A stretch of DNA of 41,105 nt from positions 1 to 41,105 of the forward strand of contig JADHVI010000007.1 of the NCBI GenBank assembly GCA_016784125.1, given 5' to 3'. Made by a program: the position numbers and the translations under genes. The stretch comes from Candidatus Woesearchaeota archaeon (GTDB taxonomy: Archaea; Nanobdellota; Nanobdellia; Woesearchaeales; GCA-2686295). The notes under the pieces are model-generated. The model saw only the letters and a program-made list of their open reading frames with translations, was not told the DNA's origin and did no database searches. How positions within the stretch are numbered: the stretch's first letter is position 1; every line of letters begins with the position of its first letter. This document shows, one piece after another, positions 3,606-21,468 of the stretch.

Positions 3606-4040
3606 ATGAGAGGAGTAACTCATTTGGTTATTGGATTGTTTGTGGCTTTGTTGATATTAGAATTTACTGATGTTAACTCTTTAGCGTTAGTTATAATTGT
3701 ATTAGTGGCATCTCTTCTGCCAGATATTGATGAGCGTCATTCTCTTATTGGAAGAAAGTTTCTCCTTGTTGGTTGGTTCTCAAGGCACAGAGGGTTTTTT
3801 CACTCTGTTTATCCAGCAGTAATTTTTTCGTTAGTAATGCTTGTTTTTTCAAATATGTTTTATGCGTCTGCTTTTTTTTTAGGTTATTTCATACACTTAG
3901 TTTTTGATGCTATGACTAGATCAGGTATTTCTTTTTTCATGGTTGGGAAAAAAGTTAAGGGTTTATTTAGAACAGGTGGAATAGTTGATTATCTATTATT
4001 CTTTATTTTTTTAGTCTTATCAATTTTGTTGATTTTATAG
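3606..4040 (+). CDS. YdjM-like membrane-bound metal-dependent hydrolase
   Basis: A 144-residue protein of the LexA-binding, inner-membrane hydrolase-like family (YdjM). The family's metal-ligand pattern is visible: H6 in GVTHLV, D40 and D42 in LPDID, H61 and H66 in HRGFFHS, and H97 and D101 in HLVFDAMTRSGI. Three or four membrane segments separate these motifs. The family resembles phospholipase C/nuclease-type membrane hydrolases, but the substrate is unknown. The gene runs towards the RPA-like gene, leaving a two-base gap. The TATA box at 3576-3583 predicts a leaderless mRNA, which fixes the start. Confidence 0.83.
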   Translation: MRGVTHLVIGLFVALLILEFTDVNSLALVIIVLVASLLPDIDERHSLIGRKFLLVGWFSRHRGFFHSVYPAVIFSLVMLVFSNMFYASAFFLGYFIHLVFDAMTRSGISFFMVGKKVKGLFRTGGIVDYLLFFIFLVLSILLIL

Positions 4041-4042
4041 AA

Positions 4043-5302
4043 TTAGTTTTTGTTGATATCTTCCAAATCATCTATTGACATAACATCTTTATCATTCTCA
4101 GCGTCTGATTCTTTTACAGCATTTTCTACTGCGCTTGTGTCTTCGTCTGGGAAAATTTCTTCCTCTGCAACAGATTCTTCCTCCGGTAACTTTGGAGCTG
4201 GTTCAGGTTCAACAGCTGGAATTGGTTCTACTACAGGTTGTGGTGTTGTATCAGGAGTTTTCTCTTCAACTACAGGTTTTTTTTCTGTTTCAGTTGTTAT
4301 CGCTATGGGTTCTGTTTTTGGAGTCTCTGCAGCTAATTTTTTTATTTCTTCTTCAGGATCAATATCTTTGAATATGAGGTTTGCAATTAATTCTAATCTT
4401 TCAAATGCATCATTTTTCTTCACTCTTCCTACAACTTTAACTATTGTTCCTAATAAGTCTGTTTTCACGTTTTCGAATGAGGCAGGATCTTCTCTAAATT
4501 TCAGAACTTCTTCGTTGGTTAGGCCTAGGAGTTTTTGAATTTGGTTTCGCCATAGTACTGTTCGAACGTTGTCACTTCCATCATCTAAGAATAAGTTCAT
4601 GACATATGCATAACCAATGTTTTCAATTTCTTTGTCTCCTGCATAAAATTTTCCTTCTTTTTGTATTGCGCGTTTTCCTGTATTAGGGTCAACTTCGAAG
4701 AATCTTGGATCAAATACTTGTACTATTGTTGCCAATACTTCAACATTATCATCTCCTTCTGCTAATTCTGACAATTTCTTTCTTGCAACTGTTTCTTCAA
4801 GAACTGTTATTTCAACACCTTTAGGATTAATAATCATCTCTGCACTTTCATTTAGGTGTAATTCTTTTCTACCATTATTTTCTCGGATATAACCATTTTT
4901 TATAGTAATTATATTGCCTTCTTTTATTTCTTCAAACTTGTCTGTCTGATCATTCCACAACAAAACCCTTATGAAACCAGTTTCATCTGATATAATGAAA
5001 CTAGCTATTTTTCCAGACCTTTTCTCCGTATTGAATTCTCTAAGTTCAAATTTTCTTGTTACTTTTCCAGTTACTTCAATATTTTTCATGCCTGGAAGAA
5101 TACTTTTTAGCTTCAACTTTTCCCCAGGTATAATGAGTTTGACTCCTAGTTCATTTGCTATTATGTGTGCTGCGCCTTCCTCAGAAATGAGACCTGATAA
5201 TTGATCTAATTTGGCTTTAATCTTCTGATTAACTTCATCTTCAGAAAGAGAACTCTGTTCTTTGATTTTAGCCTTTATATCTGCCAATGGTAATGTTATC
5301 AT
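4043..5302 (-). CDS. OB-fold single-stranded DNA-binding protein, RPA-like
   Basis: A 419-residue protein. Residues 1-60 form a helical, DUF2240-like N-terminal region. About 73-155 is a typical nucleic-acid-binding OB fold (EVTGKVTRKFELREF, then FIISDETGFIRVLLWND). About 175-290 looks like a second OB-type domain (VEVLATIVQVFDPRFFEV, DDGSDNVRTVLWRN). No zinc finger is seen. The last 100 residues are Pro/Glu/Thr-rich, ending in a short acidic helix (MSIDDLEDINKN). Archaeal RPA-like proteins of this kind protect single-stranded DNA in replication and repair. Upstream is a TATA-like TTTTTAAAG at 5331-5340 and a GGGGGA stretch just before the ATG. Confidence 0.85.
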   Translation of the reverse strand: MITLPLADIKAKIKEQSSLSEDEVNQKIKAKLDQLSGLISEEGAAHIIANELGVKLIIPGEKLKLKSILPGMKNIEVTGKVTRKFELREFNTEKRSGKIASFIISDETGFIRVLLWNDQTDKFEEIKEGNIITIKNGYIRENNGRKELHLNESAEMIINPKGVEITVLEETVARKKLSELAEGDDNVEVLATIVQVFDPRFFEVDPNTGKRAIQKEGKFYAGDKEIENIGYAYVMNLFLDDGSDNVRTVLWRNQIQKLLGLTNEEVLKFREDPASFENVKTDLLGTIVKVVGRVKKNDAFERLELIANLIFKDIDPEEEIKKLAAETPKTEPIAITTETEKKPVVEEKTPDTTPQPVVEPIPAVEPEPAPKLPEEESVAEEEIFPDEDTSAVENAVKESDAENDKDVMSIDDLEDINKN

Positions 5303-5365: not shown

Positions 5366-7774
5366 TCAATTTACTCTTAGTTCTGCTCCTTGAACCATGT
5401 CTTTTTGATTCTTGAAGTTATCGATCCCCACAACTTTAAAGACATAAGTATTATTACTTAATAAAATGAGGTCCGCGGATTTTATCATGAAAGAATATTT
5501 TCTTTTATCACTTTGATTTTCATAGTAAAGTTTGTTGTAGTCATTTGGGCTTGCTTCTTCCGCGTTATATTCATAGTATGCACCAATTTCTTTCTTAGAT
5601 AGAGGAATATTTTTTTGTTCGTAGGTAATATTATACATTGTGAAATCTTCTGTGTGTTTATCCATCCATGTCAATTCTATTTTTCCTTCAAAGCTTTCTT
5701 TTACTTCTAGATTTTGCACTTCTACAGGTGGAACTTCATCAATCAAGGTCATTGCAAATTTTATTTTTGTAGGTTCATAAGTAAGCTCGTTCTTAACAAT
5801 CGTCTTCTTTAATGTTGGAATTAAATAATTGGTTTTTCCACAAACTCTAAATGTCTTTTTTGCCACTGGACAAATATCTTTTATGAATGTTGTGTCTTTA
5901 GTTGGACTAAACAAATTTTCTTTTGGAGCAGTATTAAGTATGTTCTTGAGCGCGTGTAATATTTGGCTCATTGCGCCTGGCTTGAACTCCACCCATAAAG
6001 AGTAATGTTTATCTTTTACAACCATAAAAAGTTTTTCGAAGTTTTTCAAAGTATATTTTTTGTTAGCTAATGAATAATAAAAGTTCAAGTCATAATTATA
6101 CAACTTCTTGTTTTGGTACCAGAAGGTGTAAGTATTTGGTTCCCAGAAAGTCTGATCTGGAATGCTAAATTGAGATTGCAGTTCCATTGGAGTTGTAAAA
6201 TTCATGTTTATGTATAAACTTTTGTCAGTTATTGGTCTTGGTGTGTTGTCAACACCAAATCTGGCTTCGTATCCGCCTGTTAAATTCTTTATTTCTTCAC
6301 TCGTATAATTCTCTGTTATTTGACATTTGCAATTGTTTCCCCATGCCTCACCACAATCATCAAAGTTTTCGATTAAGTCATAGAATACTCTCTCGTTTCC
6401 TTCTTCACAATCGTGAAGATCTAGAATTTGAACATCTTGACTATTATTATTGAAATCGACTTTTTTCTCTTCTAAACAAACAGCAACATTGTCTTTACAA
6501 TCTCTAATTGTTTCTTCTGCGAATGTTTTTAATTTGTCATAAACAGACAGATTATATGGTGTTTGTATTCTGAAGTTTTGTCCGAATTCAAATGTGCCTA
6601 TGACTGATGGCATGAACATTGATGTTCCACCCCATGCAACATAGTAAGCACTTACTTTGTTGACATAATCTTTTATTTCTATAACCTTTGCTTGGTTTTC
6701 AGCATCAGTCCAACCTTTGTAAGGACTATATTTTTTTAAAACATCTACTGTGATATATTGAGAGACTTCTTCCCATGACGGGTCGTCTTTACCTGTTAGT
6801 TTTATAGCATCTCTAATAGGTCCATATCCTCCATTGTATGCTGCAGCTCCAAATGCTAATTTATCAGTTGTATCCTTTATGGCTTTTTTACCTAGAATAT
6901 CTTCAATTAGTTCTCCTGCGTTAATTATAGATTTGTGAGCGTTTGATCTGGGATCTTTTTTTATATCTGCTAAGCTGCAACTTCTTGTTTTGGCACAGTC
7001 ACCAATACTTTTGATGTTTTTTTTATCTGCTTTGTCAAAATAATCCCTTGCAGTACTATAACAGAATTGTTGTATTCCTATACAACCTGATTTTGAAACC
7101 GCGAATTCATACCCTTCTGATTCCTGTGTTATAATTGCTTTTTGAAATGCGGGATCATACTTATGTAGTGCACCAGTTCTCGTTATGATATCGTGGAATT
7201 TGTTGATTCTGCCAATTGTATCTGCAGGAATTTCAGTTGGTAAAACTTGAGTTTGTTTTTCAATTATGTCCCCTGATAATGTTATGACAACATCTATTTT
7301 ATCGTTTGTTTCTCCAACAACTTCTAACTGTTCTCCTTTTTGATTGAATGTTAAATAGTGATTGCTGCTCAATGATAATAGTTCATATTTTGAGAACTCT
7401 ACACCTAATCTGTCACGCATCATGATTCTTAAATTATTTTCAGAATCTGGCCAACAAGTATTTGTTCCTTCATTCCACAGATTATAACCTGATGTTCCAC
7501 AATCGGCTGTTATTAGTCCACCTTTTCCATTTATTTCATCAATTGATTTCCAAAGAGCAATTTTGGCAGAGTTATCTATGTGAATAAGCGCTTCTTCTTG
7601 TTGTTGATAAGATTTTATTACTGCATTTGCGTACATTCCAATAACAGCTTTTTGTCCATTTACTTCTCTTGAATTTGATTTATCATTATGAATTAATACG
7701 AGCGCTATTAACGCGAATATTACTACGAGAACTACTATTAATGGTAATATTTGTCCTTTCTTGTTTTTCATCAT
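5366..7774 (-). CDS. Prepilin-like protein with lytic transglycosylase (SLT) domain and a C-terminal Fn3-like domain
   Basis: About 802 residues if it starts at ATG 7774, which overlaps the upstream stop as ATGA; an earlier ATG at 7789 would add five residues. The N terminus MMKNKKGQILPLIVV is a class III signal followed by one membrane helix. About residues 193-380 carry the motifs of lytic transglycosylases/goose lysozymes: QESEGYEF with the catalytic Glu (about 218), SGCIGIQQF, AYNGGYGPI and DYVNKVSAYY. The next 300 residues contain several Cys and are unassigned. The last 100 (VPPVEVQNLEVKESFEGKIE onward) look like a fibronectin type III domain. It should sit outside the cell. Archaea lack murein, so the target may be another cell's wall. 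Confidence 0.82.
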   Translation of the reverse strand: MMKNKKGQILPLIVVLVVIFALIALVLIHNDKSNSREVNGQKAVIGMYANAVIKSYQQQEEALIHIDNSAKIALWKSIDEINGKGGLITADCGTSGYNLWNEGTNTCWPDSENNLRIMMRDRLGVEFSKYELLSLSSNHYLTFNQKGEQLEVVGETNDKIDVVITLSGDIIEKQTQVLPTEIPADTIGRINKFHDIITRTGALHKYDPAFQKAIITQESEGYEFAVSKSGCIGIQQFCYSTARDYFDKADKKNIKSIGDCAKTRSCSLADIKKDPRSNAHKSIINAGELIEDILGKKAIKDTTDKLAFGAAAYNGGYGPIRDAIKLTGKDDPSWEEVSQYITVDVLKKYSPYKGWTDAENQAKVIEIKDYVNKVSAYYVAWGGTSMFMPSVIGTFEFGQNFRIQTPYNLSVYDKLKTFAEETIRDCKDNVAVCLEEKKVDFNNNSQDVQILDLHDCEEGNERVFYDLIENFDDCGEAWGNNCKCQITENYTSEEIKNLTGGYEARFGVDNTPRPITDKSLYINMNFTTPMELQSQFSIPDQTFWEPNTYTFWYQNKKLYNYDLNFYYSLANKKYTLKNFEKLFMVVKDKHYSLWVEFKPGAMSQILHALKNILNTAPKENLFSPTKDTTFIKDICPVAKKTFRVCGKTNYLIPTLKKTIVKNELTYEPTKIKFAMTLIDEVPPVEVQNLEVKESFEGKIELTWMDKHTEDFTMYNITYEQKNIPLSKKEIGAYYEYNAEEASPNDYNKLYYENQSDKRKYSFMIKSADLILLSNNTYVFKVVGIDNFKNQKDMVQGAELRVN

Positions 7775-8310
7775 GGTAATAGTATCCAAGTTTCAAATTC
7801 TAAATTTATATTTGATTCAAAGCCAGGTATTGTTTTTGTAATTGTAATTTTTTTATCAATCGGAAGCATACCATAATATCCTGGTCCAACAAACATTCTT
7901 GTCATAATATTTTGTAACCAAGTTCCAACTTTTTGTCTCTTGTAACTATGACCATATATGATTGGGTTTTCGTTTGGGAATTCTAGCTCTAAACTCCAAT
8001 ATTCTCCGTACATTTCATTGAATCGGCTTTGAATTCTTTGTCTAATAGTGGTTCTTTTATCAATGTCATATTCTGCTTCCATTATAAGTTCAGAAATTGT
8101 GTATTGTTTTCCTTCATGACTTACTGGTTCTCTTAAAAACATTAATAGTTTAGTTTCGTAATAGCTTATAGATGAACCCTTGATTTCTCTTTCAGCGCTA
8201 CCTGCTTGAAGAGTTGATGTTAGGATTAAAACTACTATAACACCTATTACTAACCAAATGTATGAGAATGTGCTTGGTATATCTTCATATCCTTTTTTGT
8301 TTCCTATCAT
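7771..8310 (-). CDS. Minor prepilin-like protein
   Basis: A 179-residue protein starting MIGNKKGYEDIPSTFSYIWL, a class III-like signal, then one membrane helix (about 15-35) and an external domain of about 140 residues with no cysteines. The segment KLLMFLREP followed by QYTISELIMEAE resembles FIISFLKMN and KYTMEDLIQDCA in the product at 15799-16287, so the two look like paralogs. The start ATG overlaps the upstream stop as ATGA. Probably a minor subunit of a pilus-like structure; family not recognised by name. Confidence 0.7.
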   Translation of the reverse strand: MIGNKKGYEDIPSTFSYIWLVIGVIVVLILTSTLQAGSAEREIKGSSISYYETKLLMFLREPVSHEGKQYTISELIMEAEYDIDKRTTIRQRIQSRFNEMYGEYWSLELEFPNENPIIYGHSYKRQKVGTWLQNIMTRMFVGPGYYGMLPIDKKITITKTIPGFESNINLEFETWILLP

Positions 8311-8801
8311 GTTGTTCCCAGTACCACTTCAATTTTTATTGGAGAAGATTTTAGTTGATTATTCTCAACGTAAGAAACCCAGAACTCTCTGGATTTGTAT
8401 TCAACGCTGGTTGCTCTTTTTAGACTGCTCTGCGCGATTGGTTCTAGTCGCTTATACAAATTTTCATTATAGAAAACAGGATCTTTTCCTCTAAGTGTTA
8501 ATTTAGCGGCTATTTGTTTATCACTTGAATAATCAATTGTGCTTTCCAGATTTGTAGAATTAAGCTTGGTAATATCAATTCTTCCAAGGTAGCTTCGATC
8601 TATGTCTTCATCGTAGTAAGCTAATGAATTGACAGAATATATTATTCTATTGATAAAAAGGTTGATTTCGGTGTCTTCAGTTTTTATGTCTGTGAGTGTA
8701 ACAAAGTAAGCAAAGAATATTATTAGAAGTGTGACAATAGCTAGAAAAATCATTTTGTGAATTGCTGCAATTGTCTTCATTCCTTCGTCGCCGTCACCCA
8801 T
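8307..8801 (-). CDS. Membrane-anchored minor pilin-like protein
   Basis: A 164-residue protein with one N-terminal membrane helix (about 18-36) and an external domain. It lacks the KKG motif of its neighbours. Inside the first 22 bases is GGTGA (8794-8798), which could serve as a ribosome binding site for a second ATG at 8780, so the real start may be MKTIAAIHKM. The segment LFINRIIYSVNSLAYYDE followed by LGRIDITKL resembles QVVYALPEI and CVDLLKF in the product at 16271-16771. It is followed by a gene resembling the one that follows that paralog. Function unknown; likely part of the same envelope structure. Confidence 0.65.
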   Translation of the reverse strand: MGDGDEGMKTIAAIHKMIFLAIVTLLIIFFAYFVTLTDIKTEDTEINLFINRIIYSVNSLAYYDEDIDRSYLGRIDITKLNSTNLESTIDYSSDKQIAAKLTLRGKDPVFYNENLYKRLEPIAQSSLKRATSVEYKSREFWVSYVENNQLKSSPIKIEVVLGTT

Positions 8802-9636
8802 AGAAATTAATCACCCCTTTAGCAATAGATTTTCCAATGTTATCATTGAGTTTTGCTTCCACAACTAATCCGTCTTCTGCTCCAAGAAGTTTTGTGAATT
8901 GGGCTGAATTTCCATCAATTCTTTCTATGTTTGTAACGAATAACTCTTCTGAACTTGATTCAACAATTTCATTTGTAATGAGACAAGTCAATCTTTCACT
9001 TTTTCTAAGATTTTTTTTATAGTAAAATGCTAGTGATTCTCGATCACTGTTTTCAATTAGTATTCCTAAATTAGCATCTTTGGCTTTATCTGCAATAGTG
9101 AATCCTTCTCTTGACAATCCACTTTCTACAAGTGCGGCCATGAATGCATCGTTTGATTCAACATAGATGGTAATGTCTTCAGGTTTTTCTGAAGTATTAA
9201 AATTAGCACAAGTTTGAGTTTTCAGAGCTTCTTCAGATATCTTAACAGAGCTCGCGCTCAAATAAATTTTGAAGTAAGAAGTGAATAATTCTTTATTCTC
9301 AACGATCACATTTGGTCCGCTGGCAAATCTGAAAGAAGTAGGTCTTGGATTATCAATAAAATCACTATACTCAAAAACTTGAACCGAATTTTCTTTGAGT
9401 TCAAAAACCAAAGGTCTGGTGGCTTGAACAAGATTATAATTAATTTCTAAGTCTCCTCTGCCGGCTTGTCCGATGTCAATGAGCATTGCAGGATCTCGGG
9501 CGTAAAAAACCTTCCAGAAAAAAGTTCCGTCAGAAGCATTTCCAACACCTTTGAATATCGCCATTGTGACGATGAGAGCGAAAATCCCCATGAAAGCTAG
9601 GTACAATATGTAATTCTCCACCCCTTTTTTATTCAT
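8794..9636 (-). CDS. Prepilin-like protein, unknown family
   Basis: A 280-residue protein starting MNKKGVENYILYLAFMGIFA: a class III-type signal with Glu two residues after the predicted KKG cleavage site, then one helix to about residue 28. The external domain is mixed alpha/beta with two cysteines and a C-terminal stretch NIGKSIAKGVINFYG. No enzyme motif is seen. A TATA-like element 19-28 bases upstream suggests it can be transcribed on its own. The next gene overlaps its 3' end by 8 bases. Confidence 0.68.
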   Translation of the reverse strand: MNKKGVENYILYLAFMGIFALIVTMAIFKGVGNASDGTFFWKVFYARDPAMLIDIGQAGRGDLEINYNLVQATRPLVFELKENSVQVFEYSDFIDNPRPTSFRFASGPNVIVENKELFTSYFKIYLSASSVKISEEALKTQTCANFNTSEKPEDITIYVESNDAFMAALVESGLSREGFTIADKAKDANLGILIENSDRESLAFYYKKNLRKSERLTCLITNEIVESSSEELFVTNIERIDGNSAQFTKLLGAEDGLVVEAKLNDNIGKSIAKGVINFYG

Positions 9637-9698: not shown

Positions 9699-10937
9699 TT
9701 ATGGAATAGGATTTTGAGTGACGCCGTAGTATGGGATGTTTGGTTGTGTTATTGGTGGCGTACTACAGTCACAGTTGCAAGGATTTACTGTTTCAACCCA
9801 TTTATCATTATCGTATAAATCGCAGTTACATGCCTCTGTACAGTTTTCACAAGTGTTAGGTTTCAAACTGCCAATTATGGGTGCTTTGGCATCCCAATAA
9901 CAATCTCTATCTAAACCGCAAAGATTGAAAGTACAAGCATACTTATCTGAATCATATTTTGTGTCGGTTTTATAGTCTCCACAGTCATCTATTCTTTGTG
10001 GGTAGCAATAATCATTGTAAAGATCTCTTGGTAAGTCGGTTTTGTAGTGCTTGTCTTCAATGCAGAATCCACTTGTTCTTGCTTGACCTTCACAGAAGCA
10101 TTCGCTCTCAATAATTCCCATTGCACAAGGTTCTATGGCTTCTTTTTCACAAGAATTATTGTTTTGATTAAACTTACATACAAAGTCATTGCTTTGTTCT
10201 TGGAATATAAAACCATACTTTTGGTTTACACAAGCAGCGTAAGATCCTGCTGGGCATGTATGGATTGAGTAGTATCTGTCAACATTCACAGAGTTATCCA
10301 AATCAATGAAAATTTCCATGATATCACCTGGTAATTTTCTAGTTTGAATTGTTAAACCTTTAGATCCCCAATATCCATGGTCAACACTATATCCTGCCAA
10401 ACACACATATTTATACTCATAAACGTTTCCATTAACTGATTCACTTTCATCAAGCATATCATAACAGTATGGCTTAATGTGATTATTATAATCTGGACTT
10501 TCAAATCCGGTGTGTATTTTTGTTTTCTTAAATTGTTTACAGTTAACAACCCTTTTATCATTAATGTTTTTTTTATTCAAATCATTGATCAAAGGTTCTT
10601 TAAACAAACATAAACAACTTTCACTTTTACAAGTTTTAGGAGTGGAAATTATTCTTCCATTTCCAATAGCAGAATCGTCATTTTCATAAAAGCTGATTAT
10701 TACAAAGTCATCTTCTAGTTCCAATGTTATATCGTTTATCCCGCTTTGACTGCCTGTTTCGATTAGTCCTTCAATTATGCTAGTGAGTTTTATGAACTCT
10801 CTATTTGAGAGGCTGTCGGCTTCACTTGAGAATAAATCTATGTCAACTGTTTTCACGGTTGCTCCTAGCACTGTAACTAAGAATAAGCACGCGATGACAA
10901 TTTTTACAAAGAATCCCATATCTCCTTTTTTATTCAT
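9699..10937 (-). CDS. Cys-rich prepilin-like surface protein
   Basis: A 412-residue protein starting MNKKGDMGFFVKIVIACLFL (class III-like signal and one helix). The external part holds roughly 30 cysteines, several in CxC or CxxC spacing (CLCLF, CNCDLYDN, CNCDCSTPP), and so should be disulfide-stabilised. DDCGDY, then CTFNLCGL, then CYWDA, resembles the Cys/Trp module repeated in the neighbours at 11227 and 21471. No catalytic motif is seen. The gene starts 7 bases after the stop of the upstream small prepilin-like gene. Confidence 0.68.
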   Translation of the reverse strand: MNKKGDMGFFVKIVIACLFLVTVLGATVKTVDIDLFSSEADSLSNREFIKLTSIIEGLIETGSQSGINDITLELEDDFVIISFYENDDSAIGNGRIISTPKTCKSESCLCLFKEPLINDLNKKNINDKRVVNCKQFKKTKIHTGFESPDYNNHIKPYCYDMLDESESVNGNVYEYKYVCLAGYSVDHGYWGSKGLTIQTRKLPGDIMEIFIDLDNSVNVDRYYSIHTCPAGSYAACVNQKYGFIFQEQSNDFVCKFNQNNNSCEKEAIEPCAMGIIESECFCEGQARTSGFCIEDKHYKTDLPRDLYNDYCYPQRIDDCGDYKTDTKYDSDKYACTFNLCGLDRDCYWDAKAPIIGSLKPNTCENCTEACNCDLYDNDKWVETVNPCNCDCSTPPITQPNIPYYGVTQNPIP

Positions 10938-10944
10938 TTTTTAG

Positions 10945-11217
10945 CTACGAGAATTTTGTTATTGCACAACAGATTTTTTCTTCTCCACAACCAAATGAGT
11001 AACTGGTTCCGCCTTTTTCTTTACATGCCTCTTTGTTGTCCAAGCACTCGGCGCTTTCAACGCCAGGCATATTTGTGCATTTAGTAAAATCTTCAAAATC
11101 AGGTCCTCTTTGGATTACGAATCTGTCTATAAAAACATATGATATGAATATTAGAGCTATGACTATTATTGCAGTCACAGTTAGTCCCATTAATTTTTCT
11201 ACTCCTTTTTTATTCAT
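10945..11217 (-). CDS. Small prepilin-like protein with six-Cys domain
   Basis: A 90-residue protein: MNKKGVEKLMGLTVTAIIVI signal and helix, then about 50 external residues with exactly six cysteines ending in a CC pair (CGEEKICC). The spacing C-x10-C-x6-C-x11-C-x5-CC belongs to the pattern shared with the three genes upstream in the cluster. A GGTGA ribosome binding site lies 6 bases before the ATG and overlaps the upstream gene's stop. It could be a small subunit or tip protein; no named family is recognised. Confidence 0.68.
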   Translation of the reverse strand: MNKKGVEKLMGLTVTAIIVIALIFISYVFIDRFVIQRGPDFEDFTKCTNMPGVESAECLDNKEACKEKGGTSYSFGCGEEKICCAITKFS

Positions 11218-12630: not shown

Positions 12631-12632
12631 CG

Positions 12633-12887
12633 TCAATCTCTAAGTGGAACTGGACTACAGCAAAATTTTGTTCCATCATCACCACAAAGATTTACTCCTT
12701 GGACTCGCTTGTTGCTATCACAGGTTTCTTTGCAAACCCCACCCTCTGTAAAGCACTTAGTGCCGTCAGAGACATGAGTTCCGGATCTCGCAACCAGAAT
12801 TGCTAGTATAATCAATACAAGAAGAGCTATTGCGGCTATTATAATTACATTGATACTGAGTCCTTGTCCTTTCTTGTTTATAATCAT
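12633..12887 (-). CDS. Small prepilin-like protein with six-Cys domain (tandem paralog)
   Basis: An 84-residue protein starting MIINKKGQGLSINVIIIAAI, a textbook class III signal (KKG before Q). The external part has six cysteines spaced C-x6-C-x3-C-x11-C-x7-CC. The membrane segment INVIIIAAIALLVL is identical to that of the next gene upstream, and the two lie 5 bases apart, so they arose by tandem duplication. The external halves have diverged apart from the cysteines. Confidence 0.7.
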   Translation of the reverse strand: MIINKKGQGLSINVIIIAAIALLVLIILAILVARSGTHVSDGTKCFTEGGVCKETCDSNKRVQGVNLCGDDGTKFCCSPVPLRD

Positions 12888-13220: not shown

Positions 13221-13700
13221 CTATGTTCGCAATGTGATCTCACCTTCGCGCAGGTCAGAAAGATATTTTTCAATTTTTACTTGAATGAAATAAGTTCCAG
13301 TCGGTAAGTCTCTACCTTTTTCATCTTCTCCTCTAAAATCAAAGGTGTATATGCCAGGTTTCTTTTTTTCGTATGTAAAACTTGCTTTCATATCGCCATG
13401 ATGATCCGTTATTCTTACATAAACATCCTTATTTTTTGACCACGGAAACCTGTTCTTTCCAACGGAATATTTGACTTCTATTTCTTCACCCACACTCGCG
13501 TCAAAAGTTTTTGGTTCAATGTGAATGACACTATTAGTTAAATTTGAATTATTCCCACCACCAAACAAGCCCGCTCCAAATCCTAACATGCCTGAATGAT
13601 TTCCTGATATCATTGGAAAAACTATGAATCCAAATGCCACTAATAATCCAAGAGAGATTAAGATTGTTGCGCCTGTGCTGAGTCCTGAGTCGTCTGTCAT
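13221..13700 (-). CDS. Membrane-anchored protein with one Ig/FlgD-like beta domain
   Basis: A 159-residue protein: a short N terminus without KKG, one membrane helix (about 10-30), a glycine-rich linker, then a beta-sandwich of about 95 residues. The pattern KKPGIYTFDFRGEDEKGRDL followed by PTGTYFIQVKIEKY is typical of FlgD-like or other Ig-like bacterial and archaeal surface domains. It starts two bases after the stop of a 46-residue membrane protein. Probably a small extracellular scaffold subunit; not identified further. Confidence 0.65.
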   Translation of the reverse strand: MTDDSGLSTGATILISLGLLVAFGFIVFPMISGNHSGMLGFGAGLFGGGNNSNLTNSVIHIEPKTFDASVGEEIEVKYSVGKNRFPWSKNKDVYVRITDHHGDMKASFTYEKKKPGIYTFDFRGEDEKGRDLPTGTYFIQVKIEKYLSDLREGEITLRT

Positions 13701-13702
13701 TT

Positions 13703-13843
13703 TTATGATAAAAATCCAAAAACATTATCTAAAATTCCTGCTGAAGCATCCGATGAGTTGGATATCAGCATGAACACTATTACCAATAAGAGTAATCCCA
13801 TTATTAGTGAAATAATAACCCATGAAGTCATGCCTTTTTTCAT
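13703..13843 (-). CDS. 46-residue prepilin-like membrane peptide
   Basis: A short gene of 46 codons, beginning MKKGMTSWVIISLIMG: a KKG motif, one long hydrophobic helix, then a short polar tail (SNSSDASAGILDNVFGF). It fits neatly between its neighbours (27 and 2 bases) and has the same N-terminal design, which is why it is called as real. Its small size recalls a bare pilin helix, with little or no globular head. Confidence 0.6.
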   Translation of the reverse strand: MKKGMTSWVIISLIMGLLLLVIVFMLISNSSDASAGILDNVFGFLS

Positions 13844-13870
13844 TTTAGTAAAATATTGTTTCTCTAGTAT

Positions 13871-14776
13871 TTATTTGTTATGTTCTGGGCCAACAATTTC
13901 GCAACCCATTTCCTCAAATTCTGCTTTGTTATAATCTTTTATGAGTATAAATGACAACCAACCAGGAATATCATTGACTTCTTTTCCTGCGACGAATAAG
14001 CCTGAAATGTCTTTATGTATCTCTTTATTTAGATGTATTGTGTTTATGCAAACATTGTTGATAAATCCTGACAAAAAGAATCCACAAGTAGTTCCAGAAT
14101 CAATTGCTCCACCTATAAAACCCAGTGCACTTCCTGCCCCCATATTATTTGCAGCAGTGTCTAGTAATTCAGTTGTTTCAAGTATTTTGTTTTGATTTTT
14201 TGTGTAATAAAATATTACTGCTTTTTTACTGTCGGTTTTGAAACTTGACTGCATTTTTAGTAAAGCTTTTTCTTCTCTGGCCTTCTCTGCTGAGAATTCT
14301 TCATTTTCTGTTTCGCTAATAAAATACTGTAAGTAAGTATAATCCACGCCAGGCATCTCTGTTCTTGAAAGGAATAATTGAAAATCATTTATCAAAATAT
14401 CTTTCTCCTCAAAATCAAGTAAGTAGCAAACTCTACAATCAGTTACCTCAGCACCATACAAATCTGCTTGTCCTTTCTTCCAAGTTTTCCAACAGGATTT
14501 CATGTTTTCTGCCATAAGAAATTTTACTTCTTCAACGTTTTTGCTGACAATTGTTTGGTTGACAGTCTCGCATCTGATAGGTTTAAGATTTTTCCCACGG
14601 GATGCTTCTTTTGTGAATATATGAGATATGACTTCTCTTTCACAAGCACCATTTTGAATAACATCAATGGTTCTGTTTCCTATGTTTCCTGCAAACGCAT
14701 ATGCAACCGCTAAGAATATTATTACAATTATAAAAACAACCATGTAGTGTGGAACTACTCTTTGTCCTTTACGCAT
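13871..14776 (-). CDS. Prepilin-like protein, CW/CRxC family, copy 1
   Basis: A 301-residue protein starting MRKGQRVVPHYMVVFIIVII (RKG before Q, one helix). The external part contains MAENMKSCWKTW, then TDCRVCYLLDF, closely matching IADEIVDCWRKF and VGCRICSEIEF in the next gene upstream, so the pair are paralogs. A second hydrophobic, glycine-rich stretch (about 205-235, ALGFIGGAIDSG) is absent from the partner. The external cysteines probably form disulfides. It starts 9 bases after the upstream stop. Confidence 0.68.
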   Translation of the reverse strand: MRKGQRVVPHYMVVFIIVIIFLAVAYAFAGNIGNRTIDVIQNGACEREVISHIFTKEASRGKNLKPIRCETVNQTIVSKNVEEVKFLMAENMKSCWKTWKKGQADLYGAEVTDCRVCYLLDFEEKDILINDFQLFLSRTEMPGVDYTYLQYFISETENEEFSAEKAREEKALLKMQSSFKTDSKKAVIFYYTKNQNKILETTELLDTAANNMGAGSALGFIGGAIDSGTTCGFFLSGFINNVCINTIHLNKEIHKDISGLFVAGKEVNDIPGWLSFILIKDYNKAEFEEMGCEIVGPEHNK

Positions 14777-14785
14777 CTTAAATCA

Positions 14786-15643
14786 TTATTTGAAAGGGTT
14801 GTATGGTAATGTCCTTCCTCCGCAAACCTCTCTTTTTTTATCTTCGCTTATGACATAAGTATTTAAGTCTCCTTCATTACGAACAATGTTTTTTCTTACA
14901 AACACAACGAAGTACTTTATATTGCTGTCAAAAACTGGATCAGTATTAATATTATGTTTAATGGCGAATTCTTCCCAACAATTCTCGCCCCAATAATATT
15001 CGTCTGTGCAACTAGGAGGTCCTTCATGTTCTGCTAATAATTCATAGTATTTCTTTGCGCCTGTTTCTTGTTGAGATCCTGTTCCTAGATCAGAATCTTT
15101 CAAATGTTGTTTGAAACCACTGAACTTTTCAGGTGTGTCAAGATTAAATTCTATCTCTGAACAAATTCTACAACCAACCGCGTCTATGTTATCATTAAAC
15201 CAGGATTTGTATGTTCCTTCACGCCAATCTCTTGGAACAAAAAAAGTGTCTATGGCGCCCCGTCCGAATTTTCTCCAACAGTCTACTATTTCATCAGCGA
15301 TAACTTGGTTGACACGGTAATTAGTTAATGTTTTGTCAAGGTATTCTATATCTCTAGAAGGAATATCATCTCTGAAAATCTTGCCTGCTGTTTGATTAAA
15401 TATGATTGTATATTTTGGACAGTTGTCATTCAAACTAGTTTCGTAATCCCAAAAACCAATTTCAAAGCTTCCAAGGGTATTTAGTAAAATATTTTTTTGA
15501 CAGTCAAAATCTCTAACTGAGTCCATAACTACCGAATGTACTTGTCCTTGAAGTTGAGTGCCAGTGATTAATACAACTATTGCAACTATTCCCATAATTA
15601 ACGTGTTTTTTGTTGTTTCAAATCCTTTTTTATTCATTTTCAT
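14786..15643 (-). CDS. Prepilin-like protein, CW/CRxC family, copy 2
   Basis: A 285-residue protein starting MKMNKKGFETTKNTLIMGIV. The first ATG overlaps the stop of the 39-residue gene as ATGA; an in-frame ATG two codons later is also possible. After one helix comes an external domain with DCQKNILLN, the CWRKFGRGAID motif and GCRICSEIEF. The C-terminal region includes a predicted strand (KYFVVFVRKN) like KAVIFYYTKN in copy 1. No enzyme signature is seen. Likely a repeated structural subunit of the surface system. Confidence 0.68.
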   Translation of the reverse strand: MKMNKKGFETTKNTLIMGIVAIVVLITGTQLQGQVHSVVMDSVRDFDCQKNILLNTLGSFEIGFWDYETSLNDNCPKYTIIFNQTAGKIFRDDIPSRDIEYLDKTLTNYRVNQVIADEIVDCWRKFGRGAIDTFFVPRDWREGTYKSWFNDNIDAVGCRICSEIEFNLDTPEKFSGFKQHLKDSDLGTGSQQETGAKKYYELLAEHEGPPSCTDEYYWGENCWEEFAIKHNINTDPVFDSNIKYFVVFVRKNIVRNEGDLNTYVISEDKKREVCGGRTLPYNPFK

Positions 15644-15759
15644 ATGATGGGTGTGCTCATTGTACCAAGCATGCTCCTAATAATAAAGAATATTATGAGT
15701 ATTATGATTGCGAAGAATATTATCCTCTTCAAATAATCCATCTCAATTGATATTCCCAT
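15640..15759 (-). CDS. 39-residue single-span membrane peptide
   Basis: A gene of 39 codons reading MGISIEMDYLKRIIFFAIII, with one very hydrophobic helix of Ile/Phe and a short tail ending STPII. Its stop overlaps the next start as ATGA, and a TATA box lies 25.5 bases before its ATG, so it probably heads a sub-operon as a leaderless transcript. It lacks KKG, so it is either a small accessory membrane protein or a coupling ORF. Function unknown. Confidence 0.55.
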   Translation of the reverse strand: MGISIEMDYLKRIIFFAIIILIIFFIIRSMLGTMSTPII

Positions 15760-15780
15760 AGTAGAAAACCTGTTTTAAGA

Positions 15781-15788
15781 TTATAAAA
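15781..15788 (-). promoter_or_regulatory. TATA box before the 39-residue gene
   Basis: The plus strand reads TTATAAAA, i.e. TTTTATAA on the minus strand, centred 25.5 bases from the ATG at 15759. It lies in the 39-base gap between the two genes. The spacing fits a leaderless transcript. Confidence 0.5.
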
Positions 15789-15798
15789 AACTTTCGTA

Positions 15799-16287
15799 TC
15801 ACTTGCAGATGTCCAGCCTTACAACTACGGTACCGGGATGTGGGTACAAACTGATTGGTTGGAATGCCGCGTTCTTTTCTGAATCATCCGAACATTCATG
15901 TTCCACATTTATATCCATTGTGGGCATCTCTACTATGAAATCAAATTTCTTCTGCCACACCATAAGAGTTTTGTTAGCAAGCGAATTCATTACTCCTTCA
16001 ATATATGTACAAGTATCTGTGCCCCCACAACCTAATCTTCGATCAACGGCGCAATCTTGAATGAGATCTTCCATGGTGTATTTATTGCAGTTTGAACCCC
16101 CATTCATTTTCAGAAATGAAATAATAAAATTTGATGATAATTGATCATCTTCATATGTTCTTTGAACTTCTTTTTTAGGTTGACTGGCTTTGAAGGCCAC
16201 AACGAAGAACATTCCCAGAGTCAAAAGTATAACTATAACTATCAGGCCCATTATTTCCATTTGTCCTTTTTTAGTGGAATTTCTCAA
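15799..16287 (-). CDS. Minor prepilin-like protein
   Basis: A 162-residue protein starting MRNSTKKGQMEIMGLIVIVI. KKG before Q-M-E is a very good prepilin-type site, with the Glu typical of many type IV pilins. The external domain contains FIISFLKMN and KYTMEDLIQDCA, similar to the product at 7771-8310, then five further cysteines. The C-terminal VVVRLDICK is a likely final strand. The start overlaps the upstream gene by 17 bases, which is needed to keep the signal. Confidence 0.7.
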   Translation of the reverse strand: MRNSTKKGQMEIMGLIVIVILLTLGMFFVVAFKASQPKKEVQRTYEDDQLSSNFIISFLKMNGGSNCNKYTMEDLIQDCAVDRRLGCGGTDTCTYIEGVMNSLANKTLMVWQKKFDFIVEMPTMDINVEHECSDDSEKNAAFQPISLYPHPGTVVVRLDICK

Positions 16288-16771
16288 TTGTTAATACTCC
16301 AAAATCATTTGAATCATCAACAGGATTGTACAAAACTATTGGCATGTATATGGTGCTTTTAGATGTCCAAGTATTGTTGCCAACATATAACTCCAAATTA
16401 TTAGTGAATCCTGCGGCGTTCATTCTATCAATACTGATACGAGCCTTTCCAAATATTTCTCTATAATAAAAGTAATTTGTTTTGTCGTATCCATAATGAC
16501 TCTCATTTATGATGTTTGAAAGAGATATAAATTTCAATAAATCAACACAACCATACTCTGCACCTCCGGCAAATGAACATTGTATTTCGGGTAAAGCATA
16601 CACAACTTGAGAAAGTTTCACTGCATCTAGTTCTTCGAACAACACTTTTTGCTCACCAATACTAGATGATTTTACTTTGCCGTAGAATACAAAACCGAAT
16701 GTTATCAAAACTATTATTATGATTATAACGGCAATGGATTCACCCATATGAATTTGTGCTTTACGTCTCAT
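16271..16771 (-). CDS. Minor prepilin-like protein
   Basis: A 166-residue protein starting MRRKAQIHMGESIAVIIIII: RKA before Q and a Glu at position 11. A long Ile-rich helix is followed by an external domain with two cysteines (about 63 and 74) and the segment CVDLLKF. It resembles the product at 8307-8801 in this region, and each is followed by a similar second gene, suggesting a duplicated two-gene cassette. Function unknown beyond likely pilus-type assembly. Confidence 0.68.
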   Translation of the reverse strand: MRRKAQIHMGESIAVIIIIIVLITFGFVFYGKVKSSSIGEQKVLFEELDAVKLSQVVYALPEIQCSFAGGAEYGCVDLLKFISLSNIINESHYGYDKTNYFYYREIFGKARISIDRMNAAGFTNNLELYVGNNTWTSKSTIYMPIVLYNPVDDSNDFGVLTIEKFH

Positions 16772-16772
16772 C

Positions 16773-17753
16773 TTAATATATTAAAGGACATTTTTTTGCC
16801 CTCATAAGATTATCATTGTCTTGTTCTAAGTTCGCAGAATTTTGATATATTGCAACTGTATTAGCAAGTGTGGGGTTATTAGTTATTGTTTGTATTTCGT
16901 CGAGTGCCCAACTATAAAATGTTCTGCAACTAATATCTGTCACACTACTACTCAGATTTTCAATTCTATTTTGATTTAATGTCATCAGAGTGTTTAATCT
17001 TTGGAATGATTTGTTCATAGTACACTCATAAAAAGCTGCATCTTCAGAAAATATCGCGCCGAATAAAGATTCTTTTTTCAAAAACTTATGTGTTTTGTCG
17101 TCGTCAAATGTTATCTCTCCATAAGAATCTATGTCGGTTGTATTAATTGTAATTTTGTGAACTTTGTTAGCTCGCATATGTACATTAATGCCATCATGCT
17201 CATTACCAACAAACTCTATTATTTTGTAGGAATCATAATTGAGTTCTTCTAACTCTGCATCTTGATCAACCAGCATTTTTGTAATGTTTGAAGGTAATTC
17301 ATCATATAATTCTTCTGCGGAGCCACCCAAATCCTTCACTACAATAAACAGCGTTCTCTTAGTTGTTAAATACTGAAAAAATCCGATCCTAAAAGGCAAA
17401 TCCCAACTTCTTGTCCAACTAATAAGTTCGTGACCTCGAAGTTTTGATTGTGAAAAAATTATGTCATAAGGAGTGTCTTTTTTTACTCCATTTCCAATAT
17501 CGTAAAAAGATATGTCTGGCTCACAGACAAATTCAATTGTGATATCAGGCATTTGTATCAATTTCAAACTCCCGCTGCTTTGCTCGGAACTCTTTATGAC
17601 TGTGTCAAGATTATTAATTAGTGCTCCTGCCAATTCAAAATTAGCATCTTTGGTTTGAGATTGAACAATCATTACAAAGAATAATAAAATTACTGCGCCA
17701 ACTATGAATACAAATATCCAATTAAGTTGAATGCTAATCTGTGCTTTTTTCAT
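16773..17753 (-). CDS. Prepilin-like protein of a conserved DPANN type
   Basis: A 326-residue protein starting MKKAQISIQLNWIFVFIVGA, with KKA before Q. The N-terminal pattern QISxQxNWIFVxIxGAxIL is one I recall from hypothetical proteins in several DPANN genomes (memory, not checked). The external part is a mixed domain with few cysteines (CEPD, CTMN, CRTFYSW) and ends MRAKKCPLIY. No catalytic motif is evident. The start overlaps the upstream stop by one base (TGATG), implying coupled translation. Confidence 0.7.
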   Translation of the reverse strand: MKKAQISIQLNWIFVFIVGAVILLFFVMIVQSQTKDANFELAGALINNLDTVIKSSEQSSGSLKLIQMPDITIEFVCEPDISFYDIGNGVKKDTPYDIIFSQSKLRGHELISWTRSWDLPFRIGFFQYLTTKRTLFIVVKDLGGSAEELYDELPSNITKMLVDQDAELEELNYDSYKIIEFVGNEHDGINVHMRANKVHKITINTTDIDSYGEITFDDDKTHKFLKKESLFGAIFSEDAAFYECTMNKSFQRLNTLMTLNQNRIENLSSSVTDISCRTFYSWALDEIQTITNNPTLANTVAIYQNSANLEQDNDNLMRAKKCPLIY

Positions 17754-18229
17754 CAGTCCGCACCGATTCTTGTTTTCTTACCAAGACCTTCAAATTTAAG
17801 ATAGAACTTGCCACCCCTACTTTGAATGCATAAAACGTCTTCATTCAGTGATATCTGAGATACAAAACCTACAGGTTCCGTCACGTCATCATTAACCAAA
17901 AAAATATTATCTTCAATACCATTCCACACACTATCTTCAATTATTGGATTATCTGGAAATGATATGTGCTTATTCTCATCAATCGCACTAGTATTGGCAA
18001 AACAAAGAGTGGTAAATGAACAAGGTGTGCTCAAAATTTTTTTATGTACGTCGCCATAATCAGAAAAAGATTCAATTTTGGATTCAAGATCGCTTGCAAA
18101 AGTTGCTCTTTCAACATCACAACCCTGACCCATTAATCCACCAATGGATTTGTATCCAAGCAACAAAATGAGTCCAACCACTATTATTGTTAATATGTAA
18201 ATAAATACGTGTTGAACTTGTCCTTTCAT
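17753..18229 (-). CDS. Small prepilin-like protein
   Basis: A 158-residue protein starting MKGQVQHVFIYILTIIVVGL: KG before Q immediately after the initiator Met. One membrane helix is followed by an external domain with about four cysteines (GQGCDVERA, STPCSFTTLCFAN, DVLCIQS). The start overlaps the end of the upstream 1080-residue gene as ATGA. The N terminus is of a kind I recall from DPANN conserved hypothetical proteins; no function is assigned. Confidence 0.68.
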   Translation of the reverse strand: MKGQVQHVFIYILTIIVVGLILLLGYKSIGGLMGQGCDVERATFASDLESKIESFSDYGDVHKKILSTPCSFTTLCFANTSAIDENKHISFPDNPIIEDSVWNGIEDNIFLVNDDVTEPVGFVSQISLNEDVLCIQSRGGKFYLKFEGLGKKTRIGAD

Positions 18230-21200
18230 TTTCCCGTTAACTCAAGCTCTTTTAGCAATTCAGACACTTCTTTCTTTGTCAATAATTCTGTGTCTAGGAA
18301 TTCAAAAAGAATCTCTGCAACTGTTTGCTTAGAGAGTTTTCCTTTTGTTAATAATTCTGATAATATGGCTTTAAAAACATTTGCATCGATTTGTTTCTTT
18401 GAAGTAACGTTGGCAAAAACTTTCAATATATCGGCACTCGAAACCTCTTTTTTATCAACAGCTTTTTTGACTTCTTCATGATCTTTTCCGGCCAATGCAG
18501 CTAGTTTCTTAAAAATATCATCTGATTCTAAAACAATATTTTCATCTTCTTCTGTTTTTTCATCTTCTAATTTTAAGGGGAGTTTTTCTTCTTCTTCAAG
18601 TTCTATTTTTTTCTCTTCTTCTTTCTCTTTAACTGCAAAATGTTCTTCAGATTCCTCATCTACAGATGCTTGTTTTTTTATCAACTCTAATTCTTGGAAC
18701 ACATCTTTTCCAAGGTTTTCTTTCTCAAGATTTTCCTCTTTTTCTTTGAGTGTAGATACATCCACATACTCATCTTCTTTTTTAGTTTCACCTTTTTTGG
18801 GTTCTTTATTAAAAGTTTTTTTGGCTGCTTCTTCAGTTTTTGAGTCTATTTTGAAGTGCTCGTTCTTCCTAGGTTCTGAACGTTTGAATTTACTGAAGAT
18901 TTCTTTTCTTTTTTCTTTTCTAACATCGCTTTTCTTTTCAAAAGTACTTTCTTCCCATTCCTTGGTTTTCTTTTCTTCAGCGCTAGGCTCCATTATTGGT
19001 TTTAACCCTTTATTATCAATCAATCTTGGTGACGCAAAACCTTGTTTTTTCTTTTTGTTCTCTAAAATTAAGTATATAATACCAAATATAACGAATATTA
19101 ACCCCACTACCATGAAAATCATTGGAATAATACTTTTTCCTTCCTCATCAGTCTCCATCATACTTGGTGGAGTATCATCTGTTCTTTTTCTAGGACTGTT
19201 TTTATCTCTAGGATCAGAACCCGCTCTAAACTCTTCTAAGTTTGTCAACTCATCTCCATCAGGATCTTCATCTGCATCTGAAGGATCTGCTGGTTTCAAC
19301 TCGTATTGTATTTCCCAGTAATCAGGCATGCCATCACCATCGCTATCAATATCTAAGTCTTCAGAACAAAAATTATTTTTACATATGCCTGAAATACAAT
19401 CACCATCTCCAGAGCATATAAATCCTGCTTCGCATTGCTCACAATCTCCACCACAGTCAATATCTGTTTCATAACCATCTTTGTGAAGATTATTACAAGA
19501 CGGTTCTATACACTGACCAATTAAAGGATCACAGGCTTTGCTAATACAATCATTATTACTTGTACAAGCTGCTGCTGCTCCGCAAGGAGGGCAATCACCA
19601 CCACAATCAATATCTGTTTCTGTATCATCTGGTAATTCGTTAAAGCAATGAATTGGGTACGCTTCTTCAGGCGTTAAGAATTCTACGAACTCAGAGCCAG
19701 ATGCATTATTGCCTTTAGTATCATAAACTGTCCAGCAAAATGTTTGATCTTCTGTTGTAATAATACTATTAGTTATCAACTCTGTCCAAGCAACAACACA
19801 ACTATCTGCACCGCCAGCCAAGCCATATGTAAAGCTATTTTTACATCCTGATCCAGAATCAAAACACTGAACATCTATAAGCATTCCTTCACTAGTAGCT
19901 CTTGTTTCAATAGATGTTGTGGGTGGGTTAAAGTCACATTCTGAGGATGAAGAGCTCTTTGCGATAATAGTTGTTTCATCTTCTTCATAATTGCCTGCAT
20001 TGTCATAAGCTGCAACACTAATTCTATAGGTTTCATTTTCTGATAGTTCAACACTTTTACTAAAAGTAGAACCAGAAGAACCTTCTCCTATAATCTCCGC
20101 TCCAAGAACTATAGTATAATTATAATAGTCTATACCACTAATCTCATCCTCTGCTGAGAAAGTTCCACTAATAGTTGATAATGAACAAGTTGGATCTTGC
20201 ACATCAACAGTTAAGTTTTCAGGATCAGTTCTATCAACAGTGAATGAAAAACTCTTTCTTTGATCACCGTATCCAACACACCTGGTTTCATAAGAATATT
20301 CTCCCTCATCCAATAATCCTAGTTCAACAGAATATATTTTATTGCTGTAAATAGTCGTAAAATTTTGATTTGGTGAAGATTCACCATACTTGCATCCTCC
20401 AAGAGTTTGAATACTAGTTTCAATTTCAAACTCAGTTGAATCATCATTTGTATATTCTCCAGGTTCATTCATCACAATTGCAAATTCTTCGTTGAAAGCA
20501 ACTGTTAAAGTAGCTGTTTGAAGAGCTGATTCAAAACCAGCAAGATTTGTGCAGCGTATATCATATTGGAATGATTCTTGTTGGAAAAGCAATGCTCCTT
20601 CCCTAAGAGCCAAATCTGAGAAGTCCAATGCTAAAGTATGTTCTTTTTTATAAGCAGAGAAATTTTCAAGGTCATAGCCTTCAAATGTTTTGTATTCTCC
20701 GTTTTCTGTGTAACTACAAATACTTCTATCACTGCTCAAAACCGTTAGTGTGGCCATAGGCTCTTGTGGATCAGTAATAGGATTGGGAGTTATAGAAACT
20801 CCCAAAACTGGTGGTGATGGATCATTAGCAATATATAAGGATTTTGGATGAATCAAATTATTTTCATCAACACATTTCACATGAAAAGTTCTATGAAATC
20901 CATCTTCATCAGGTGATTCATCAAACAATGAAAAACTATTGTCAGTATTAATTCCTAAGATTGTGTGGTTGGTTCCTTCATCAACATCAAATAATAAGTG
21001 AAAATTATCCATTTGTGGTGGTTCAACAAAGAACATACTATATTTACACTCAGAATCACTTCCAGTAGTGATTTCAACGTCAAAGACTTCTTCAGATGAA
21101 ACACCCAAATGAGGGGAAGTAATATCTATACTCATATATGGTGCCTCAACTGTAAATGGTTGGACTACCTGACTTGGATTGCCCATCCCGTCTTGAGATA

Positions 21201-21468
21201 TAATATATAAAGTGTAATCTCCATTCATTAAATACTCTTCTGCAAACATGTTAAAAGTTGTGTTGTCAGCAGAAGAATAGCTTACATTAAACTCATCAGG
21301 GAGTTTCCAGATATAAGCCATATGAATTGTTACTGGTTCATCATATTCAACGATTATTTCTGGATATGCGTTTGTAACATTTATAGGTCCTTTTTCATAA
21401 ATAGGCATGGCTGTAGTCAATAAACTAGCTAATACTAATAATACACCTAGCACCCATAACTTTTTCAT
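18226..21468 (-). CDS. Large type I membrane surface protein with Ig-like, Cys-repeat and calcium-binding regions
   Basis: A 1080-residue protein with a classical signal peptide (MKKLWVLGVLLVLASLLTTA), not a KKG type. Residues about 30-600 are beta-rich, Ig-like domains with scattered cysteines. About 620-700 holds two copies of ETDIDCGGDC repeats. About 705-755 has Asp-rich thrombospondin type 3/EF-like motifs (DIDSDGDGMPDYWE, DEDPDGDELTNLEEF), likely calcium-binding. A helix at about 780-802 spans the membrane. About 278 Lys/Glu-rich residues then lie inside the cell, ending in amphipathic helices (EVSELLKELEL). It could link an outer structure to cytoplasmic parts. It starts just after the 2140-residue gene. 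Confidence 0.78.
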   Translation of the reverse strand: MKKLWVLGVLLVLASLLTTAMPIYEKGPINVTNAYPEIIVEYDEPVTIHMAYIWKLPDEFNVSYSSADNTTFNMFAEEYLMNGDYTLYIISQDGMGNPSQVVQPFTVEAPYMSIDITSPHLGVSSEEVFDVEITTGSDSECKYSMFFVEPPQMDNFHLLFDVDEGTNHTILGINTDNSFSLFDESPDEDGFHRTFHVKCVDENNLIHPKSLYIANDPSPPVLGVSITPNPITDPQEPMATLTVLSSDRSICSYTENGEYKTFEGYDLENFSAYKKEHTLALDFSDLALREGALLFQQESFQYDIRCTNLAGFESALQTATLTVAFNEEFAIVMNEPGEYTNDDSTEFEIETSIQTLGGCKYGESSPNQNFTTIYSNKIYSVELGLLDEGEYSYETRCVGYGDQRKSFSFTVDRTDPENLTVDVQDPTCSLSTISGTFSAEDEISGIDYYNYTIVLGAEIIGEGSSGSTFSKSVELSENETYRISVAAYDNAGNYEEDETTIIAKSSSSSECDFNPPTTSIETRATSEGMLIDVQCFDSGSGCKNSFTYGLAGGADSCVVAWTELITNSIITTEDQTFCWTVYDTKGNNASGSEFVEFLTPEEAYPIHCFNELPDDTETDIDCGGDCPPCGAAAACTSNNDCISKACDPLIGQCIEPSCNNLHKDGYETDIDCGGDCEQCEAGFICSGDGDCISGICKNNFCSEDLDIDSDGDGMPDYWEIQYELKPADPSDADEDPDGDELTNLEEFRAGSDPRDKNSPRKRTDDTPPSMMETDEEGKSIIPMIFMVVGLIFVIFGIIYLILENKKKKQGFASPRLIDNKGLKPIMEPSAEEKKTKEWEESTFEKKSDVRKEKRKEIFSKFKRSEPRKNEHFKIDSKTEEAAKKTFNKEPKKGETKKEDEYVDVSTLKEKEENLEKENLGKDVFQELELIKKQASVDEESEEHFAVKEKEEEKKIELEEEEKLPLKLEDEKTEEDENIVLESDDIFKKLAALAGKDHEEVKKAVDKKEVSSADILKVFANVTSKKQIDANVFKAILSELLTKGKLSKQTVAEILFEFLDTELLTKKEVSELLKELELTGK

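Follow-up and report, generated by a model that had tools for sequence, protein, structure and literature searches.

Gene content of the locus

The window analysed here is the whole 41,105-nucleotide stretch of contig JADHVI010000007.1 (assembly GCA_016784125.1, Woesearchaeales), in which a long run of reverse-strand genes ends in a gene for a protein with a lytic-transglycosylase (LT) domain, hereafter the terminal gene (Table 1). About 15 same-strand genes between 7.8 and 18.2 kb encode proteins that start with a single transmembrane (TM) helix, most of them class III-like (prepilin-like), and the terminal gene brings their number to about 16. The two very large proteins at the upstream end are uncertain members of the same machine and possibly adhesins.

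Table 1 Features of the terminal gene and its surroundings (window coordinates)
Feature	Position	Strand	Remarks
Conserved small membrane protein	3606..4040	+	Linked to the anchor gene
OB-fold-like gene w4043	4043..5302	-	Almost always adjoins the terminal gene; survey anchor; OB-fold name from sequence inspection alone
Terminal gene, class III (prepilin-like) protein with SLT/GH23 domain	5366..7789	-	807 aa from TTG
C-terminal part, residues 389-807	5366..6625	-	Conserved F/YxxxPSF or FEFGQNF element and FN3-like beta domains
SLT lytic-transglycosylase domain, residues 190-388	6626..7222	-	Pfam, MltE alignment, AF2/Foldseek, conservation
Catalytic Glu223 codon	7121-7123	-	
N-terminal region, residues 1-189	7223..7789	-	Class III signal, TM helix and conserved small domain (family 'tipN')
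Prepilin-like neighbour w7771	7771..8310	-	Conserved in the order and in sister orders
Single-TM neighbour w8307	8307..8801	-	Partner with the widest conservation
Prepilin-like neighbour w8794	8794..9636	-	
Cys-rich prepilin-like protein w9699	9699..10937	-	Gene at the same position can hold a murein hydrolase in sister orders
Four prepilin-like genes	10945-11217, 11227-12636, 12633-12887, 12893-13159	-	
Seven further single-TM, mostly class III genes	13221..18229	-	Starting at 13221, 13871, 14786, 15799, 16271, 16773 and 17753
Secreted Ig/TSP3-like protein	18226..21468	-	1080 aa; one TM helix and cytoplasmic tail; conserved in the genus
Pair of very large Cys-rich proteins, secreted or class III	21471-27893, 27942-30986	-	2140 aa with 100 Cys and 1014 aa with 42 Cys; upstream end of cluster

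The contig is archaeal, carrying genes for S13, S4, an Rpo3/RpoA-type subunit and leucyl-tRNA synthetase. Contamination was ruled out on the strength of the archaeal ribosomal genes together with synteny over many metagenome-assembled genomes (MAGs). One contig labelled as an Aminicenantes bacterium (L091, JAFCCF010000002.1) also bears the archaeal cluster and is therefore probably misbinned.

The terminal protein and its SLT domain

Translation of the terminal gene likely starts at an ATG at 7774 or 7771; since the in-frame ATG at 7774 nearly abuts the stop codon of the upstream gene, 5366-7774 makes a sensible gene. The 807-aa product begins MDTITMMKNKKG/QILPL; its N-terminal MKNKKG/QILPL is followed by a single hydrophobic stretch (residues 9-40), an arrangement that fits a predicted class III signal. 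The 'tipN' domain, recognisable by IG..Q..., a Cys pair and GYxLW, is the common denominator of the terminal-protein family.

The Pfam family SLT (PF01464) matched residues 211-335 (E = 1.7e-8, 34.5 bits against a cut-off of 21.3) and was the sole family found in the protein at E < 0.1, with no wall-binding domain detected there; across the 953-kb genome the terminal gene gave the only SLT match. A sequence-only search of the PDB was marginal (E = 0.07), and structure prediction was therefore used. The AlphaFold2 (AF2) model, built from 10 orthologs, comprised an all-helical domain at approximately residues 188-385 (pLDDT ~ 90) followed by beta domains. Foldseek comparison with the PDB returned MltE as the closest structure (3t36, E = 5e-6, TM-score on target 0.63), together with MltC, MltF and Slt, while matches for the C-terminal part were FN3 proteins. 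In a phmmer alignment, Glu223 of QESEGYEF fell on MltE Glu64, a placement read from the sequence alignment, and Glu223-Ser224 was invariant among 10 aligned SLT orthologs. Family profile, lysozyme-like LT fold and the aligned Glu thus all place the domain in GH23/SLT. A phage origin of the domain was considered and rejected, as no phage match was obtained.

These results bear out the earlier note, which had read the gene as a prepilin-like protein with a class III anchor and a lysozyme/lytic-transglycosylase fold with an intact catalytic Glu; each of the motifs it quoted (QESEGYEF, SGCIGIQQF, AYNGGYGPI and DYVNKVSAYY) is present in the reading frame. A fold unlike lysozyme, which by the note's own account would have spoken against its reading, was not what prediction gave. 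Full-length orthologs occur in three congeneric genomes (40-47% identity); with the invariant Glu-Ser pair, they show that the observation is not due to chance.

Survey of related loci

A whole-protein scan of genome contigs for close relatives of the terminal protein gave no match, and the conserved neighbour w4043 was used as an anchor instead. The 80 named loci fetched in this way are the best matches to the anchor rather than a random sample, and nearly all derive from Candidatus Woesearchaeota or Nanoarchaeota MAGs; the evidence is comparative throughout and consists of predictions from MAG sequences. In 64 of the 80 loci a protein sharing the N-terminal domain was present, nearly always one to three genes from the anchor, and most of the remaining loci end at a contig edge. 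In-house HMMs were iterated on this same protein pool, and the Pfam tallies given below are independent of them.

All surveyed terminal proteins share the N-terminal domain and differ in the domain inserted behind it. Among the first 20 loci the slot was occupied by SLT, M23, Amidase_2, M74, 3D or a combination of Amidase_2, M23 and SLT. The Pfam tally for 65 slot proteins was SLT 19, Amidase_2 7, M23 6, NLPC_P60 4, M74 3, M15 3, 3D 2 and VanY 2, with one each of Phage_lysozyme, VgrG3-like C, CHAP and DUF2272; the families other than murein hydrolases were TPM and fn3. One terminal protein (L055:8636-12178, the same as L075:6401-9943) combined SLT with a TPM domain.

With in-house HMMs and Pfam taken together, 40 of 64 terminal proteins contained a murein hydrolase, representing about 10 unrelated kinds. 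By comparison, such domains were found by Pfam in just 2/111 genes located one to three positions upstream of the terminal gene (Fisher test, 3e-20) and in 3/642 genes beyond the anchor (8e-45), two of these three adjoining a terminal gene in inverted arrangement. A hydrolase was present somewhere in the cluster in 42 of 64 clusters. The 24 terminal proteins in which the same HMMs and Pfam recognised no hydrolase may be unarmed, may contain unrecognised enzymes or may rely on another gene. A woesearchaeal gene away from any recognised terminal gene (L124:10751-14848) encodes a 1365-aa protein uniting GDSL esterase, M15_4, M23 and NlpC/P60 domains.

Mapping the slot domains onto the anchor-protein tree gave at least 25 changes of label. 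M23 + SLT, NlpC + SLT and Amidase_2 + SLT proteins stood side by side in a single clade with SH-aLRT of 100, and another clade mixed Amidase_2 and M15. Residues needed for catalysis were largely retained: the SLT Glu-Ser pair in nearly all of 28 copies (some of which, e.g. L114, were assigned weakly by in-house HMMs), the M23 HxxxD/HLH motifs in 10-11 of 12, the NlpC FDCS in 5/5, and the M74 SHQxGRDxD motif, the exceptions being L060 (M23) and L114 (SLT).

As judged from their families, the slot enzymes have a predicted substrate in common, bacterial murein, and neither fold nor chemistry. This is our main argument: since the substrate is the only property common to them, the machine that carries them appears to be aimed at bacterial murein, and we regard the repeated swapping of one murein hydrolase for unrelated others as strong comparative evidence for that substrate. 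Of the two functions proposed in the earlier note, action on bacterial walls is consequently the likely one, with activity predicted for the enzyme. Its other suggestion, a non-catalytic SLT fold reused to bind glycans or to serve in the assembly of an archaeal surface structure, would accord with the moderate Pfam score of this copy and with catalysis being a prediction. We nevertheless consider such reuse very unlikely, because the same slot accommodates some 10 unrelated murein hydrolases, most of them catalytically intact by sequence: almost every SLT copy retains Glu-Ser, and the other families keep catalytic residues of their own.

Dedicated LTs are part of many bacterial envelope machines, VirB1 and FlgJ for example opening the murein of the very cell that makes them, and by analogy the terminal enzyme could remodel its producer's own wall. 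No penicillin-binding protein (PBP) transpeptidase was found in this genome, however, and only 3 of 79 relatives gave a match. The murein substrate of the slot is thus unlikely to be the archaeon's own, and remodelling of own murein was rejected as scarcely credible. PBP transpeptidase matches in relatives include G017:C1:1062871-1063686 (E = 1.6e-32) and G054:C263:5644-6258 (E = 3.4e-14), which may represent a transferred gene, contamination or another function.

Synteny, ATPase linkage and distribution

Gene order was largely kept across 20 loci of the same order, ranging from members of the genus to different families, with the SLT gene standing as the last prepilin-like gene before the OB-fold-like gene. 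Class III signals, predicted by motif, were found in 370/438 same-strand upstream genes as against 38/574 downstream genes (Fisher-tested). A Pfam pilin family (Pilin_N) was matched by only 1 of 111 neighbours. The AF2 model of the N-terminal domain showed long helices and a small sheet, and fold search with it gave neither a significant PDB match nor any match to a pilin. The label 'pilin', as applied to these candidate subunits, rests on the class III signal, the ATPase and synteny rather than on fold; signals of this class are widespread in these archaea.

Twelve loci from sister orders keep the gene order in reduced form. There, the cluster adjoins a gene for a 727-782 aa ATPase matching the archaeal GspE 2oap (E = 7.5e-30) and also CpaF and FlaI, next to which a polytopic partner of 697-727 aa is encoded (~700-740 aa for the conserved partner gene as a whole). 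The partner gave one weak match to T2SSF (E = 2.3e-4, below cut-off); its matches to GPCRs were dismissed as composition artefacts. In all eight own-order genomes inspected the ATPase-platform pair was also present, side by side or within ~ 1 kb, and located away from the cluster; no dedicated ATPase was found in the present MAG (84% complete). The same MAG has, on contig C20, another locus of the conventional archaeal pilus kind (L155, G000:C20:7001-27000), which encodes canonical pilins (KKGQSSLEYL...), an ATPase of its own and a pair of platform-like proteins.

Of 279 genomes sampled from the phylum, 182 contained the N-terminal domain. Among the matches listed, all proteins from outside the order were ≤309 aa long and 101/122 from inside it exceeded 320 aa, in a hand-transcribed comparison from which partial frames below 200 aa were excluded for the other orders. 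In 4 of the 12 sister-order clusters the terminal protein was short and the hydrolase resided in another prepilin-like gene of the cluster (SLT + Amidase_2 in L159, 3D in L164, SLT in L169 and, by in-house HMM, M15 in L158). As the enzyme occupies different cluster genes in these loci, it is the cluster, and not one gene, that acts as the hydrolase carrier.

The same data bear on another account, in which the terminal protein is an anchored antibacterial weapon or nutrient enzyme operating without any filament, its class III signal serving just as a tether, while the other cluster genes encode unrelated surface proteins; such an enzyme would kill competitors or digest bacterial debris close to the cell surface. 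Killing of bacteria by archaeal murein hydrolases has been demonstrated (Woldo, PMC12352652), and both the lack of a pilin-fold match for the N-terminal domain and the unlinked position of the ATPase in the own order agree with this account. We still hold it to be unlikely, since about 10 partners stay in conserved order over the class, a dedicated ATPase is linked to the cluster in sister orders and the hydrolase shifts between genes of one cluster, a combination that speaks for a machine built of several proteins.

A competence-like or conjugation-like filament opening bacterial walls to reach DNA would be a more specific purpose of such a machine and is compatible with the reading we prefer. 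It draws on the OB-fold-like w4043, found right next to the terminal gene in the majority of loci, and on small relatives of w4043 lying beside the ATPase-platform pair in five of the eight own-order loci (L170:10407-10691, L171:10324-10608, L174:864-1280, L175:12069-12461 and L177:9442-9729). The presence of OB-fold-like genes beside both the cluster and the pair possibly indicates a link to DNA. Relatives of w4043 were, however, present in 188/192 genomes, so that it may be a mere adjoining housekeeping gene, and we rate DNA uptake as quite improbable.

Proposed function

Collectively, the observations are probably best explained by a dedicated type IV filament-like machine that breaches bacterial walls by means of a displayed, exchangeable murein hydrolase. 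According to this model, the cluster would supply approximately 16 subunits, each with a single TM helix and most of them bearing class III signals, the terminal protein being a prepilin-like subunit among them. A FlaI/GspE-type ATPase and its TadC-like polytopic partner would assemble and move these subunits, and the terminal subunit, presumably at the tip of the filament, would expose the murein hydrolase outside the cell. In the present organism the SLT lytic transglycosylase would cleave MurNAc-GlcNAc bonds by means of Glu223. Contact with a bacterium would then lead to local opening of its peptidoglycan, allowing the filament or the cell to attach, penetrate or extract nutrients, and lineages would swap enzymes, presumably in keeping with the kind of wall that their current host or prey possesses.

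Woesearchaeales are among the most diverse archaeal groups and their hosts are unknown; a statement in PMC11291902 holds that every cultivated DPANN archaeon requires an archaeal host. Extending the model, we tentatively propose, with a chance of being right that we set a little below even, that the cluster represents a previously undescribed, class-wide filament machine by which these DPANN archaea breach walls, one slot of it taking interchangeable murein hydrolases, and that much of Woesearchaeales attaches to or preys on bacteria, the type of enzyme recording the wall chemistry attacked, possibly in connection with DNA uptake. If true, this would give the type IV filament superfamily a member that cuts walls and would offer a source of new murein-degrading enzymes. 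The finding can be put to the test with the specific genes and domains that it names and with a mutant of the catalytic residue.

Comparison with known systems

The SLT domain shares with the GH23 enzymes MltE, Slt70 and MltF its fold, the catalytic Glu and the GLMQ-like and AYNGG motifs; the latter enzymes, however, are bacterial and remodel the murein of their producer. Carriage of a murein hydrolase across a wall by a machine is likewise known from VirB1-like LTs of T4SS, phage tail-associated lysins and the T6SS protein VgrG3, and the slot of one relative even contains a VgrG3-like lysozyme domain; those machines are non-homologous to the present one, which belongs to an archaeon with no sign of making murein. 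With the archaellum, archaeal type IV pili and type II secretion systems with their minor pseudopilins, the cluster has in common predicted class III signals, clustered small subunits and a large domain on one subunit, and in sister orders it adjoins a FlaI/GspE-family ATPase as well. It differs from them in its exchangeable hydrolases, and fold search gave no pilin match for its N-terminal domain. We know of no type IV filament system with an exchangeable set of murein hydrolases, and the open-licence papers searched described none.

Murein transglycosylases in Woesearchaeota and Pacearchaeota are prior knowledge. Large extracellular murein-like LT (GH23) proteins were reported from both groups as fam00969 (module 98), with bacterial hosts or attachment to walls suggested (Castelle 2021, PMC8204110), and predation was proposed in a study that also dealt with murein-like LT proteins (Vigneron 2022, PMC9723730). 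The terminal protein resembles fam00969 in lineage and domain and may be a member of it. By contrast, the main text of Castelle 2021 contains none of the terms 'operon', 'pilin', 'pili' and 'class III', nor was an exchange of LTs with amidases or peptidases in one slot found described there.

Woldo and Danwoldo are modular archaeal peptidoglycan hydrolases which kill bacteria; the screen that yielded them, as it is described, demanded a wall-binding and a catalytic domain, and Sec/Tat signals were found (Strock 2025, PMC12352652). They have in common with the terminal protein that archaeal enzymes of murein-hydrolase families are directed at bacteria and that domains are shuffled. Unlike them, the terminal protein has no wall-binding domain recognised by Pfam, so it is not a modular hydrolase in that sense of a catalytic and a wall-binding domain in one protein; it has a class III anchor and resides in a gene cluster. 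In the main texts of open-licence papers we found no cluster with an ATPase, no slot exchange of unrelated hydrolases and no shift of the enzyme between cluster genes. What appears to be new is therefore the context, a cluster with its ATPase and an exchangeable hydrolase slot, rather than the LT domain itself.
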